This document shows positions 9,529 to 59,913 of a stretch of 64,000 bases of DNA, in pieces. The translations under genes were made by a program, and so were the position numbers. The notes beneath the pieces are model-generated. The model was not told the origin of the DNA. It searched no databases and worked only from the letters and a program-made list of their open reading frames with translations. This DNA is from Cognatiluteimonas sedimenti. Its GTDB lineage: Bacteria > Pseudomonadota > Gammaproteobacteria > Xanthomonadales > Xanthomonadaceae. How positions within the stretch are numbered: position 1 is the first letter of the stretch; each line of letters begins with the position of its first letter. Location of the stretch: the NCBI RefSeq assembly GCF_022808325.1, contig NZ_JALGCL010000002.1, forward strand, positions 124,001 through 188,000, given 5' to 3'.

Positions 9529-10911
9529 TCAGCACTCGATGACGTTGACCGCGAGTCCGCCGCGCGAGGTTTCCTTGTACTTGTCCTGCATGTCGCGGCC
9601 GGTGTCGCGCATGGTCTTGATGACTTTGTCCAGGCTGACCTTGTGCTTGCCGTCGCCGCGCAGTGCCATGCGCGAGGCGTTGATCGCCTTGACCGAGCCC
9701 ATCGCATTGCGCTCGATGCAGGGGATCTGCACCAGGCCGCCGATCGGGTCGCAGGTCAGTCCGAGGTTGTGCTCCATGCCGATCTCGGCGGCGTTCTCGA
9801 CCTGCGACATGCTGCCTCCGAGCGCGGCGGTCAGGCCGCCCGCTGCCATCGAGCAGGCGACGCCGACCTCGCCCTGGCAGCCGACCTCGGCGCCGGAGAT
9901 CGAGGCGTTTTCCTTGTAGAGGATGCCGATCGCGGCGGAAGTGAGCAGGAAATCGAAGATGCCCTGTTCGTCGGCGCCCGGGATGAAGCGCTGGTAGTAG
10001 TGCAGCACCGCCGGCATGATCCCGGCCGCGCCGTTGGTCGGCGCGGTGACGATGCGCCCGCCGGCGGCGTTCTCCTCGTTGACCGCGAGCGCGAACAGGT
10101 TGACCCAGTCCAGCGTGGCCAGCGGATCGGACACGTCCGTATCCGGCCTGGCCGACAGTTCCGCATGCAGCAGCGGCGCCCGGCGTTGCACGTGCAGCCC
10201 GCCGGGAAGGGTGCCGCCCTCGCGGATGCCGCGCTGCACGCCGGACTGCATCGCCTGCCAGATTTCGCGCAGGCCGGCGTGGATCTCGTCGGCGCTGCGC
10301 CAGGCCTGTTCGTTGGCGAACATCAGCTGCGCGATCGTCAGGCCGTGTTGCGCGCAGTGCGCCAGCAGTTCGTCGCCGCTGTGGAAGGGATAGGGCAAGG
10401 GCGTGGTGTCGGCGACGATGCGGTCCTCCGCGGCTTCGTCCTGGTTGACCACGAAGCCGCCGCCGACCGAGTAGTAGTCGCGGGTGGCGAGCAGGTCGCC
10501 GTGCGCGTCGTAGGCGGTGAAACGCATGCCGTTGCTGTGGAACGGCAGCTTCTGGCGCTTGTTCATCACGAGGTCGGTCTTTTCGTCGAAGCCGATCTCG
10601 TGGCTGCCGAGCAGGCGGATCCGCTTGCTTCCGCGGATGCGCTCGAGCGCGGCGGGGATGATGTCGGGATCGATGAGATTGGGCTGCTGGCCCTCCAGCC
10701 CCATCAGGATCGCCTTGTCGGTGCCGTGGCCACGCCCGGTCAGCGCGAGCGAACCGAACACCTCGGCGCGCAGGCGGGCGACGCGCTCCAGGGCGCCGGC
10801 TTCGCGCAGCCAGTGGTCGACGAAACGCGCGGCGGCGCGCATCGGGCCGACCGTGTGCGAGGAACTCGGGCCGATGCCGATCTTGAAGAGGTCGAAGGTG
10901 CTGACTGCCAT
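9529..10911 (-). CDS. sdaA: L-serine ammonia-lyase (iron-sulfur type)
   Basis: 460 residues, close to the single-chain bacterial enzyme. It deaminates L-serine to pyruvate and ammonia using an oxygen-sensitive 4Fe-4S cluster. The N-terminus [20 protein letters not shown] is characteristic of the beta domain. The C-terminal alpha domain has the cluster cysteines in [18 protein letters not shown] and [10 protein letters not shown]. The protein ends with a cysteine (NVIEC), as in other members, where the C-terminal cysteine occupies the empty iron site. It is divergent from the glutaredoxin-like gene with only 17 bases between the two ATGs, and both appear to share one bidirectional -10 core. 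Confidence 0.96.
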
Positions 10912-10916
10912 GCAGC

Positions 10917-10923
10917 TATTCTA
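10917..10923. promoter_or_regulatory. Symmetric overlapping -10 core, divergent leaderless promoter (sdaA / glutaredoxin-like)
   Basis: The plus strand reads TATTCT (10917-10922), 6 bases before ATG 10929. The minus strand reads TAGAAT (10918-10923), 6 bases before ATG 10911. The two boxes overlap by 5 bases, and the two predicted start sites are 18 bases apart and coincide with the A of each ATG. Confidence 0.6.
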
Positions 10924-10928
10924 GGCCG

Positions 10929-11168
10929 ATGCCAGCCCCGCGGTTCCTCCTGTTCCAGCGCGACGACTGCCACCTGTGCGACCTGGCGCTGGAGGTGTTG
11001 GCGCAGGCGCGCGCGCCGGCCTTCGACAGCGTCTTCATCGACGACCAACCGGCGCTGGAACAGCGCTATGGCCGGCGCGTACCGGTCTGGCGCGACGAGG
11101 CCCGCGGGCTCGAACTGGACTGGCCCTTCGACCCCGAAACCGTGCGCACTTTCGTTGCCGGCGAGTAG
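10929..11168 (+). CDS. Glutaredoxin-like thiol protein
   Basis: 79 residues, a small thioredoxin-fold protein of the glutaredoxin/DUF836 type. The active-site pair is CHLC at residues 15-18, preceded by FLLFQRDD, and a cis-proline is seen in RRVPVWRD. No signal peptide is present, so it acts in the cytoplasm. The partner and substrate are unknown. It is divergent from sdaA and has no Shine-Dalgarno sequence; its -10 box ends 6 bases before the ATG. A link to the oxygen-sensitive iron-sulfur serine deaminase next door is only a guess from position. The 161 bases after it hold no gene. Confidence 0.82.
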   Translation: MPAPRFLLFQRDDCHLCDLALEVLAQARAPAFDSVFIDDQPALEQRYGRRVPVWRDEARGLELDWPFDPETVRTFVAGE

Positions 11169-37541: not shown

Positions 37542-38756
37542 TCAGCGCTGCAGCCGCGAAAACGCGAACAGCGCGGCCAGCGGGTGTCGCCGCCGCTCGA
37601 CCAGCGCCCGCAGCAGGCCGGCGCCGAGCATGCTGTAGGTGATGCCGTTGCCGCCATACGCCATCGCGAACAGCACCCGCGGTCCGTATTGCGGATGCGG
37701 GCCGAAGAACGGCAGGCCGTCCGCGGTTTCGGCAAAGGTGCCGGCCCAGGCGAACGCGGGCACCAGCGGCAGCCCCGGGAACAGGTCCAGTACCTGCCGC
37801 AACAGCTTGCGCGCCTTGCCGTCGACGCGCGCGTCGCGGCGCGCGGGGATGTCGACCGCATCGTCGGCGCCGCCGACCAGGACGCGGCCGTCGCTGGTGG
37901 CGCGCAGGTACAGGTAGGGGCGCGCCGTTTCCCAGAACAGCGTGGTGGCCAGCGCGCCGAGCGCGCCGCGCTCGATCGGATCGGAGACGCACGCGTAGCT
38001 GCTGCGGTTGCGGGCCACGCGCTGGTCCAGCCATTGCTGGCTCTCGTAGCCGGCGGCCAGCACCACGTGGCGGGCACGCACCCGGCAGCCCTCCGGCGTG
38101 GTCAGGGTGACGCCGCGCGGCGTGGCGCTGACCTGCGCGATGTCGGTGCGATCGAAGACCTCGATGCCGCGCTCCTGCAGGCGTGCCAGCAGGCGATAGG
38201 CCATCCGGTAGGGATCCATGCGCGCGGCCACGCGGCTGAGGATCGCGCCCGGCGCGTCGAATCCGTAACGGCCGCGGACCGCGCCGGGGTCGAGCCAGGC
38301 GACATCGAATCCGTGCCGCTTGCGCAGTTCGAATTCCTCGCGCAACGCCTTCGCATGCCGGCGCTTGCTGGCGTAATAGAGGCTTCGGGTTCGGGCGAAG
38401 CCGACATCGCGCACTTCGGCGGCCTTGGTCCGCAGCATCCCGATGGCTTCGGCGCAGCTGCGATAGGCGAGCACCGCGTCGGCTTCGCCATAACGCCTGG
38501 CCAGGTCCGTCATCGGCGTATCGATCTCGTATTGCAGCAGCGCGGTGCTGGCCGCGGTGCTGCCCCAGCCGATGTCGCGGCGGTCGATCACCACGACCTC
38601 GTGGCCATGCGCCGCCAGCTCGTCGGCGATCAGCGCGCCGCTGATGCCGCCGCCGAGTACCGCCACGTCGCAGCGCAGGTCGCGTTGCAGTGGCGGGAAG
38701 GCATGCAGCAACCCGTTGCGCACCGCCCACCAGGGGTAACCGCTCTTCAGGTCCAT
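37542..38756 (-). CDS. FAD-dependent oxidoreductase (DAO family)
   Basis: 404 residues, cytoplasmic. Dinucleotide-binding motif LGGGISGALIADELAAHG starts near residue 34, followed by VVVIDRRDIGWGSTAASTAL, typical of D-amino-acid-oxidase-like enzymes; a second nucleotide-contact region VVLAAGYESQQW and the C-terminal FAD contact FAMAYGGNGITYSMLGAGLL are present. Substrate unknown; glycine/sarcosine or gamma-glutamylputrescine oxidase-like activities are typical of relatives. It lies alone on the minus strand, 119 bases upstream of ybaL, divergent from the ABC-F gene (139 bases). Confidence 0.85.
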   Translation of the reverse strand: MDLKSGYPWWAVRNGLLHAFPPLQRDLRCDVAVLGGGISGALIADELAAHGHEVVVIDRRDIGWGSTAASTALLQYEIDTPMTDLARRYGEADAVLAYRSCAEAIGMLRTKAAEVRDVGFARTRSLYYASKRRHAKALREEFELRKRHGFDVAWLDPGAVRGRYGFDAPGAILSRVAARMDPYRMAYRLLARLQERGIEVFDRTDIAQVSATPRGVTLTTPEGCRVRARHVVLAAGYESQQWLDQRVARNRSSYACVSDPIERGALGALATTLFWETARPYLYLRATSDGRVLVGGADDAVDIPARRDARVDGKARKLLRQVLDLFPGLPLVPAFAWAGTFAETADGLPFFGPHPQYGPRVLFAMAYGGNGITYSMLGAGLLRALVERRRHPLAALFAFSRLQR

Positions 38757-58284: not shown

Positions 58285-58360
58285 GGGCCGTTAGCTCAGT
58301 CGGTAGAGCAGAAGACTTTTAATCTTTTGGTCGAAGGTTCGAATCCTTCACGGCCCACCA
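58285..58360 (+). tRNA. tRNA-Lys (anticodon UUU)
   Basis: 76 bases including an encoded CCA. Acceptor arms GGGCCGT and ACGGCCC pair perfectly; D-arm TTAGCTCAGTCGGTAGAGC, anticodon stem GAAGA with TCTTT around loop CTTTTAA, T-arm GAAGGTTCGAATCCTTC. It resembles E. coli tRNA-Lys at most positions. It lies 57 bases after queC. Confidence 0.97.
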
Positions 58361-58450: not shown

Positions 58451-59293
58451 CTAGAACGGATCGAGTGGGTGGCGCTCGGCGTCCAGCCGGATCGTGCAGT
58501 CCGCGATGCCTGGCCAGGTGCGCATGGCTTGCCGGCTCACGCGCTCGAAGAACTGCACGAAGCGCAGCACCTGCGCATGCGACATCGCCTTGCGGTCGGG
58601 ATGCCGCGCCTGCAGCGTCTGCTCCTGCTGCCACCGCCACTGCGGCACGATGTCGAAGCCCGGGCCCTGCAGGAACAGCAAGCGGGGCAGGCGCTGCCAC
58701 AGCGCGGGATAGTCGTTGGCGAGCGCATCGTTGCTCCAGCGCCGCCAGGTGCCGTCGGGATCCTCGTCGCGCTCGAGCGCGTTGATTGGTTCGGCGAGCG
58801 CGGCCTGGTCTTCGGCCGGCACCTTCAGGAACCATCCTTCCAGGATCACCAGGTCGGCGTGCGCGACGACGGGCCAATGCGACTCGGGTTCGCGATCGTC
58901 GGCGATCTTGTCGAAACGGGGCAGCGCGGCGGGGCGGCCCGCGGCCAGCGCGTCCAGCACGTCGCAGGCCAGCGCCACGTCGTGGGTGCCGGGGGCGCCG
59001 CGGGTAGCGCACAGTGGATGGATCTGTTGGCCGAGCTCCTGGCGCGCGGCGTGGCCGAGGTAGAAGTCGTCGATGGACAGCGACACGACCTTGCGATCCT
59101 GCGTTGCCGCCAGGTCGGCGATCTGCGCGGACAGCGTGGACTTGCCGGTGCCCTGCAGGCCGGCGATGGCGAAGACCGGGCCGCCGGCGTCCTGCGCGGC
59201 CCGGTACACGCGGGCGACGAATTCCGGGGCGTAGCCCGTGCCGGGGGGCCGTGGGGCGGCCTGCTCGTGGCCGGGATGCGTGGGCGTTGCCAT
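58451..59293 (-). CDS. P-loop kinase, D-glycerate 3-kinase-like
   Basis: 280 residues. P-loop [20 protein letters not shown] near residue 41, then [39 protein letters not shown] and [17 protein letters not shown]. This matches the plant-type glycerate 3-kinase / PRK-like superfamily; glycerate is the likely substrate but uridine or another small metabolite is possible. ATG 59293 lies 6 bases after a TATTGT box, in a 17-base divergent intergenic region with pdxH. No operon partners on its strand. Confidence 0.82.
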
Positions 59294-59298
59294 CGCGC

Positions 59299-59305
59299 GA
59301 CAATA
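59299..59305. promoter_or_regulatory. Symmetric overlapping -10 core, divergent leaderless promoter (kinase / pdxH)
   Basis: Plus strand GACAAT (59299-59304), 6 bases before ATG 59311; minus strand TATTGT (59300-59305), 6 bases before ATG 59293. The geometry is identical to the sdaA/glutaredoxin pair, including the 17-base gap. Confidence 0.55.
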
Positions 59306-59310
59306 ACGCA

Positions 59311-59913
59311 ATGGACGAAGACGCTCTTTACTCGCAGGCGCTGGCCGAGTTCGCGCGGTTGTACGACGAGGCCGCGGCGGCCGGCGAACCCGACCGCAAC
59401 GCGATGACGCTGGCGACGGCGTCGCTGGATGCGCGGCCGTCGGCACGCACGGTGCTGCTGAAGGCGTTCGACGCGCGGGGCTTCGTGTTCTACACCCACC
59501 TGGATGGCCGCAAGGGCCGCGAACTGCAGGCCAATCCTTACGCGGCGCTGCTGTTCCACTGGCCGCGCGTGCGCCAGGGCGTCCAGGTGCGGATCGAGGG
59601 CCGCGTGCACACGGTGCCCGACGACGAGGCCGACGCCTATTTCGGCAGTCGCCCGCGCGGCAGCCAGCTCGGCGCGTGGGCATCGCTGCAGTCCGAGACG
59701 CTGGATAGCCGCGAAACCTTCGAGCAGCGGCTGGCGCAGGCCGAGCGCAGGTTCGTAGGCCGCGACGTGCCGCGGCCGCCGCGCTGGACCGGGTTCCGGG
59801 TACGGCCGCGCTGGATCGAGTTCTGGCACGGCGCCGATTACCGGCTGCACGAGCGCTGGCTGTACGAGCGCGATGTCGCCTGCAACTGGTCGAAGCGGAT
59901 GCTGTATCCGTGA
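59311..59913 (+). CDS. pdxH: Pyridoxamine 5'-phosphate oxidase
   Basis: 200 residues. FMN-dependent oxidation of PNP/PMP to pyridoxal phosphate. Motifs [63 protein letters not shown] and [12 protein letters not shown] near the end. ATG 59311 is leaderless by position. It overlaps the next gene by 4 bases. Confidence 0.96.

Follow-up and report, generated by a model that had tools for sequence, protein, structure and literature searches.

Within the window, the 64,000-nucleotide stretch of the Cognatiluteimonas sedimenti genome that was analysed, a P-loop kinase gene on the minus strand (58451 to 59293; 280 aa) and pdxH on the plus strand (pyridoxamine 5'-phosphate oxidase; 59311 to 59913; 200 aa; TIGR00558 over its cut-off) start on opposite strands with 17 bp between their ATGs. 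The kinase is related to D-glycerate 3-kinase and uridine kinase; it scored under every curated cut-off (Pfam/NCBIfam), and its best PDB match was a D-glycerate-3-kinase (E value, 1.4e-11), D-glycerate 3-kinases being the nearest solved structures by sequence. A tRNA-Lys (TTT) lies at 58285 to 58360, about 90 bp past the 3' end of the kinase gene. The window reads CAT at 59291 to 59293, then CGCGCGACAATAACGCA (59294 to 59310), then ATG at 59311 to 59313. The spacer divides into 6, 5, and 6 bases around the core ACAAT (central heptamer, GACAATA) and holds two -10-like hexamers that overlap by 5 bp: GACAAT for pdxH (59299 to 59304, plus strand), without a T at -12, and TATTGT for the kinase (59300 to 59305, minus strand), each ending 6 nt 5' of its ATG.

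A second divergent pair, 48 kb away, comprises an L-serine ammonia-lyase (serine deaminase) gene (sdaA; sda_mono, over the curated cut-off; 9529 to 10911, minus strand; 460 aa) and a gene for a Glrx-like (DUF836) protein identified by profile match (10929 to 11168, plus strand; 79 aa). Here, CAT at 10909 to 10911 is followed by GCAGCTATTCTAGGCCG (10912 to 10928) and by ATG at 10929 to 10931, giving again a 17-bp spacer of 6, 5, and 6 bases, with core ATTCT and central heptamer TATTCTA. The -10-like hexamers are TATTCT for the Glrx-like gene (10917 to 10922, plus strand) and TAGAAT for the serine deaminase gene (10918 to 10923, minus strand), both 6 nt 5' of the ATG. Coordinates and sequence thus confirm the first-pass annotation in giving both pairs the same 17-bp, 6-5-6 layout, with GACAAT on the plus and TATTGT on the minus strand at kinase-pdxH; the "xATnnTx" centre that it proposed cannot describe the two together, what they share being A-NNN-T, whose A and T occupy spacer positions 7 and 11.

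None of the four genes has GGAG, GAGG, or AGGA at -20 to -4, the best match to a -35 element was at most 3 of 6 at all four, and a promoter scan requiring a -35 found no promoter. In the available text of two studies, leaderless genes are marked by a TANNNT that begins 12 bp ahead of the start codon and by the lack of a Shine-Dalgarno sequence (Zheng et al. 2011, PMC3160421; for Deinococcus-Thermus, PMC12340547). The kinase (TATTGT), serine deaminase (TAGAAT), and Glrx-like (TATTCT) genes have TANNNT with the first T about 12 bp 5' of the start, whereas pdxH has GACAAT in the right place with the first T absent. The A residues of the paired start codons are 18 bp apart. If +1 is the A of each ATG, a reciprocal -7T/-11A arrangement is present at both pairs (A59300/T59304 and A10918/T10922) and at all 29 of the 17-bp kinase-pdxH loci described below. 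On the same assumption, a -18T stands opposite +1A in both pairs, which is weak evidence because any two ATGs at this spacing would show it. By this geometry and the 18-bp rule, the predicted +1 of the pdxH mRNA is 59311 (plus strand), whose complement is the kinase -18T, and the geometry likewise places the kinase +1 at 59293 (minus strand), whose complement is the pdxH -18T.

The distance of 6 nt is also the commonest one for TANNNT elsewhere. Before the ATGs of coding-looking open reading frames (ORFs) of at least 100 codons in the window, TANNNT occurred seven times at 6 nt, three times at 7 nt, and at no other distance below 27 nt. In 27 loci of relatives, kinase orthologues included, it preceded coding-looking ATGs 47, 10, and 5 times at 6, 7, and 8 nt (0 to 2 elsewhere up to 25 nt). 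Without the coding filter, the counts at these three distances were 69, 29, and 25 (8 to 27 elsewhere). Of 63 distinct TANNNT-N6-ATG examples, 21 had the kinase core TATTGT[GC] and 42, split off by sequence, did not; the latter average gcTAnAAT-N6-ATG and include two kinase orthologues with TATCGT (L080 and L082) and several mutual orthologues. These 42 sites showed no -35 preference and no -18T preference (10% T), and they leave a general -18T requirement at leaderless-type sites unsupported.

Conservation was assessed from 72 kinase-match loci (30 of 68 match rows in one search and 42 from another), of which 14 without a pdxH match and 6 duplicates were removed, leaving 52 non-duplicate divergent loci; for these and for the family counts below, related genomes are non-independent samples. 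In-frame ATGs were exactly 17 bp apart in 29 of the 52, and any other distance was found in at most 3, a count made independently of the core sequence. All 29 carry ACAATA, even with identity as low as 58% for the kinase and 71% for pdxH. Sorted by the side on which the core stands at its distance from an in-frame ATG, 29 loci had both sides, 16 the kinase side only (4 of these at 7 nt), 1 the pdxH side only, and 6 neither (L011, L080, L082, L083, L088, and L090). In 45 of the 52 loci, then, 6 or 7 nt separate ACAAT from the in-frame kinase ATG, and the 16 kinase-side-only loci have no in-frame pdxH ATG 5 to 7 nt from the core. Two of the six remaining loci (L080 and L082, from Luteimonas sp. 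RC10 and FCS-9) lack ACAAT, yet have TATCGT 6 nt before the in-frame kinase ATG.

The excess of loci that keep the kinase half without the pdxH half (16, against 1 for the reverse) is what would be expected if the element were a leaderless promoter of the kinase alone (TATTGT), with pdxH expressed from elsewhere and the 17 bp reflecting compact packing. The hexamers point the same way: TATTGT matches TANNNT and GACAAT does not, the -12 position for pdxH being G or C, never T, in all 29 of the 17-bp loci, which may weaken the plus side. Against such a one-sided arrangement, the pdxH ATG sits at exactly 6 nt in 29 of the 52 loci. The pdxH-side flank (spacer positions 14 to 17) is at least as uniform as the kinase-side flank (positions 1 to 4), in rows that are related by descent and were picked for the core, so that only their flank columns are informative; GC ahead of the hexamer is common on both flanks. 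The sdaA/Glrx-like pair, moreover, fits TANNNT on both sides. On balance, we regard the one-sided arrangement as unlikely, though deserving of some weight.

The sdaA/Glrx-like pair was followed through 31 loci (30 of 117 match rows, plus L077), two of which lie outside the 29 non-duplicate divergent loci counted for spacing. In-frame ATGs were 17 bp apart in 3 of these 29, and two of the three, L031 (C. sedimenti, the source genome) and L032, have the core; a third genome with the core at this spacing (G037) was found by pattern search. The intergenic region contains TATTCTA in 30 of the 31 loci (L031 to L060 and L077), mostly with longer, varied spacers. Among these loci, GTG often stands at the sdaA start position, with tens of bases of leader.

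The two pairs had been taken as independent cases within one window, a view that their positions in relatives do not support, since in most of these the two lie close together. Both were on one contig in 51 of 61 genomes, and they were less than 25 kb apart in 47 of the 51 (42 of these at 9 to 16 kb), the exceptions being G018 (28 kb), G054 (43 kb), G082 (47 kb), and the source genome (47.5 kb). Within the genus of the source genome, G002 and G108 keep the pairs 11 to 12 kb apart, and G054 and G082 have them wide apart. The comparison covered 61 of 68 match rows, leaving out G007, G023, G024, G114, G093, and both G080 fragments.

Bare CAT-N17-ATG occurred 4 times in the window and 349 times in the genome and is ordinary and uninformative. 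With A and T in place (CAT-N6-ANNNT-N6-ATG), there were 6 sites in the 2.74-Mb genome, where composition predicts 7.6 (349 x 0.148 x 0.148), and no two divergent coding ORFs were found at the other 4. Given that the genome has no more than two gene-pair cases and that its site count is close to composition, the layout could be a coincidence of two short spacers in a dense genome. Coincidence would account poorly for 17 bp in 29 of 52 loci and for 17-bp sites outnumbering those at 15, 19, and 23 bp across the family, and we judge it highly improbable. The part of the layout that goes beyond chance is its conservation (29 of 52 loci) together with the family count, rather than the genome count.

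Pattern searches each covered 119 family genomes and were centred on TANNNTA unless stated. The 17-bp form gave 35 sites in 30 genomes, compared with 3 sites at 15 bp, 13 at 19 bp, 5 at 23 bp, and 3 (both strands together) for a 17-bp pattern off-centre by 3; comparing 35 with 13 sites under a Poisson model gave 3e-7, relatedness being ignored. Swapping the core to ATNNNAT, again at 17 bp, gave more sites still (164 in 68 genomes); TANNNTA is therefore not the commonest pattern, and as it stands this count counts against a bidirectional reading. AT outnumbers TA in the window (1945 versus 604) and, at other spacings, at the same place after CAT in the DNA examined (43 versus 15); with AT about threefold commoner and two such pairs about tenfold by composition, ATNNNAT is not a matched control. 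Changing one ATG to GTG gave 31 sites for the two orientations together, or about 15 for each, and on this count ATG specificity is weak.

Sites were then scored for coding ORFs by ORF length and GC3 only (75 codons; GC3, 0.75). Two coding-looking ORFs were present at 12 of the 35 target sites, or 11 when L137 is set aside on account of L133, a like site in which the partner frame is short; two evident genes are thus lacking at 23 or 24 of these sites. Of the 24 control sites, 23 were fetched (all but G114:C47, close to the end of a contig), and two coding-looking ORFs were found among them at 2 of 13 sites for 19 bp, 0 of 5 for 23 bp, 0 of 3 for 15 bp, and 0 of the 2 fetched for the off-centre pattern. 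The 11 two-gene sites fall into five pairs: sdaA/Glrx-like (3), ABC-F/YbaL-type antiporter (1), arsR/arsH (4), Glu/Gln-tRNA synthetase/lpxH (2), and mtnA/unknown (1). Names come from Pfam or NCBIfam on representatives, which did not include L119's partner, L120, or L126 to L128, and from like N-termini for the rest. In two genera, arsR/arsH-type pairs with the 17-bp spacer (L117, L119, L127, and L128) are centred on TATTCTA or TAGAATA. Because kinase-pdxH has G or C at position 6, the strict pattern does not detect it; a more relaxed one, found in at least 99 of the 119 genomes, recovers it amid more background. The suggestion of a recurrent class accordingly stands for the family, where 17 bp is preferred (35 versus 3, 13, and 5 sites) and other gene pairs use it, and does not for the source genome, which has two cases only (ATG to ATG, with A and T in place).

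Each 17-bp spacer is, probably, a bidirectional sigma70-type promoter with two leaderless transcripts. A near-symmetrical -10 element, A-NNN-T, would be read from both strands, the -11A of one gene pairing with the -7T of the opposite gene. RNA polymerase would bind in either orientation and start on the A of the ATG, 7 bp beyond the element; both mRNAs would then be leaderless, and their translation would begin at a 5'-terminal AUG with no Shine-Dalgarno sequence. With 18 bp from one start site to the other, 17 bp would remain between the start codons, and competition between the genes is to be expected, because a polymerase bound in one orientation would exclude one in the opposite orientation. 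This shared-promoter geometry is our best reading of the sequences, and it would account for both pairs and for the family peak without a new principle.

The conserved core could instead be an operator, bound by a regulator between the genes, and an identical core in all 29 of the 17-bp kinase-pdxH loci, with GC-rich flanks, would suit that. By contrast, the cores of different pairs differ in sequence and have in common A-NNN-T at a fixed distance from the ATG, and TANNNT-N6-ATG stands at many other genes as well; we therefore give an operator in place of a -10 element very little credence. One that overlaps the promoter, for example at arsR/arsH, may nevertheless be present.

Bidirectional promoters with a symmetrical -10 element were reportedly described by Warman et al. 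in 2021. As given in the available text of two reports, bidirectional promoters have two transcription start sites on opposite strands 7 to 25 bp apart, most often 18 (PMC12825309 and PMC10268837), a distance that follows from -7T and -11A coinciding on opposite strands, with +1A supplying -18T. The same portions state that E. coli bidirectional promoters had low basal activity where tested and that both polymerase orientations cannot bind together; by analogy, the C. sedimenti spacers may share both properties. They would resemble those promoters, as there described, in the reciprocal -7T/-11A, the -18T opposite +1A, the predicted starts 18 bp apart, and the lack of an evident -35, and would differ in that both RNAs are leaderless, with the start codons occupying +1 and -18T; the word "leaderless" is absent from both papers.

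According to the available text of Zheng et al. 2011 (PMC3160421), leaderless genes in gamma-Proteobacteria are mostly in Xanthomonadales and Legionellales. The kinase, sdaA, and Glrx-like genes are like those of PMC3160421 and PMC12340547 in having TANNNT 12 bp before the start and no Shine-Dalgarno sequence; unlike here, those studies describe single genes in the portions available, and "divergent" and "bidirectional" are absent from both main texts. In the available account of Mycobacterium tuberculosis lysG/lysE, overlapping divergent promoters lie in a 108-bp intergenic region and lysE also has a leaderless transcript (PMC5648196). The likeness extends to overlapping divergent promoters in one intergenic region and to a leaderless transcript, here predicted; unlike here, that of lysE comes from a second, separate promoter and was seen with lysine. 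The available portion of PMC7566282 held no shared two-way leaderless arrangement, and none with a shared -10 and two leaderless genes was found in a partial survey of open-access literature. The proposal of a new class of minimal divergent promoter is thus not upheld, the geometry being that of published bidirectional promoters joined to leaderless genes known in Xanthomonadales; both ingredients are known, and the novelty would be their combination.

More tentatively, and with greater doubt than confidence, we suggest a recurrent regulatory unit of Xanthomonadaceae in which start codons are promoter parts. Each ATG would be its own gene's leaderless +1 and the opposing gene's -18, and for the two genes together, 23 bp would take in the promoter, both start sites, and both initiation codons, which would evolve as one constrained block. 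The genes would be coupled by competition between polymerase orientations and would join or leave by moving one start codon, the core staying in place. If so, this would be a 23-bp natural system in which the same bases set transcription and leaderless translation initiation of two genes, and a block kept across genera of one family would be a clean test bed for polymerase-orientation competition. For annotation, a 17-bp ATG-to-ATG gap with a central A-NNN-T would then back both start codons.

Three further arrangements were seen. At about position 1000 of L106 to L109, in four genomes of one genus, a 17-bp site separates an ORF of 181 to 182 aa from a frame beginning MLTILPG, which is 19 aa long (67 aa in L109) and could encode a small protein. 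A CAT-N5-TAATGTA-N5-GTG-like site recurs in ten genomes of several genera (G017, G032, G043, G046, G064, G077, G092, G099, G111, and G118) and may be one conserved ATG/GTG divergent pair. In the window itself, a divergent pair starting at 38756 (minus strand) and 38896 (plus strand) has TANNNT 6 nt before both ATGs, which are 139 bp apart, and the plus-strand gene has an N-terminus like that of the ABC-F gene using the 17-bp shared core in L104.
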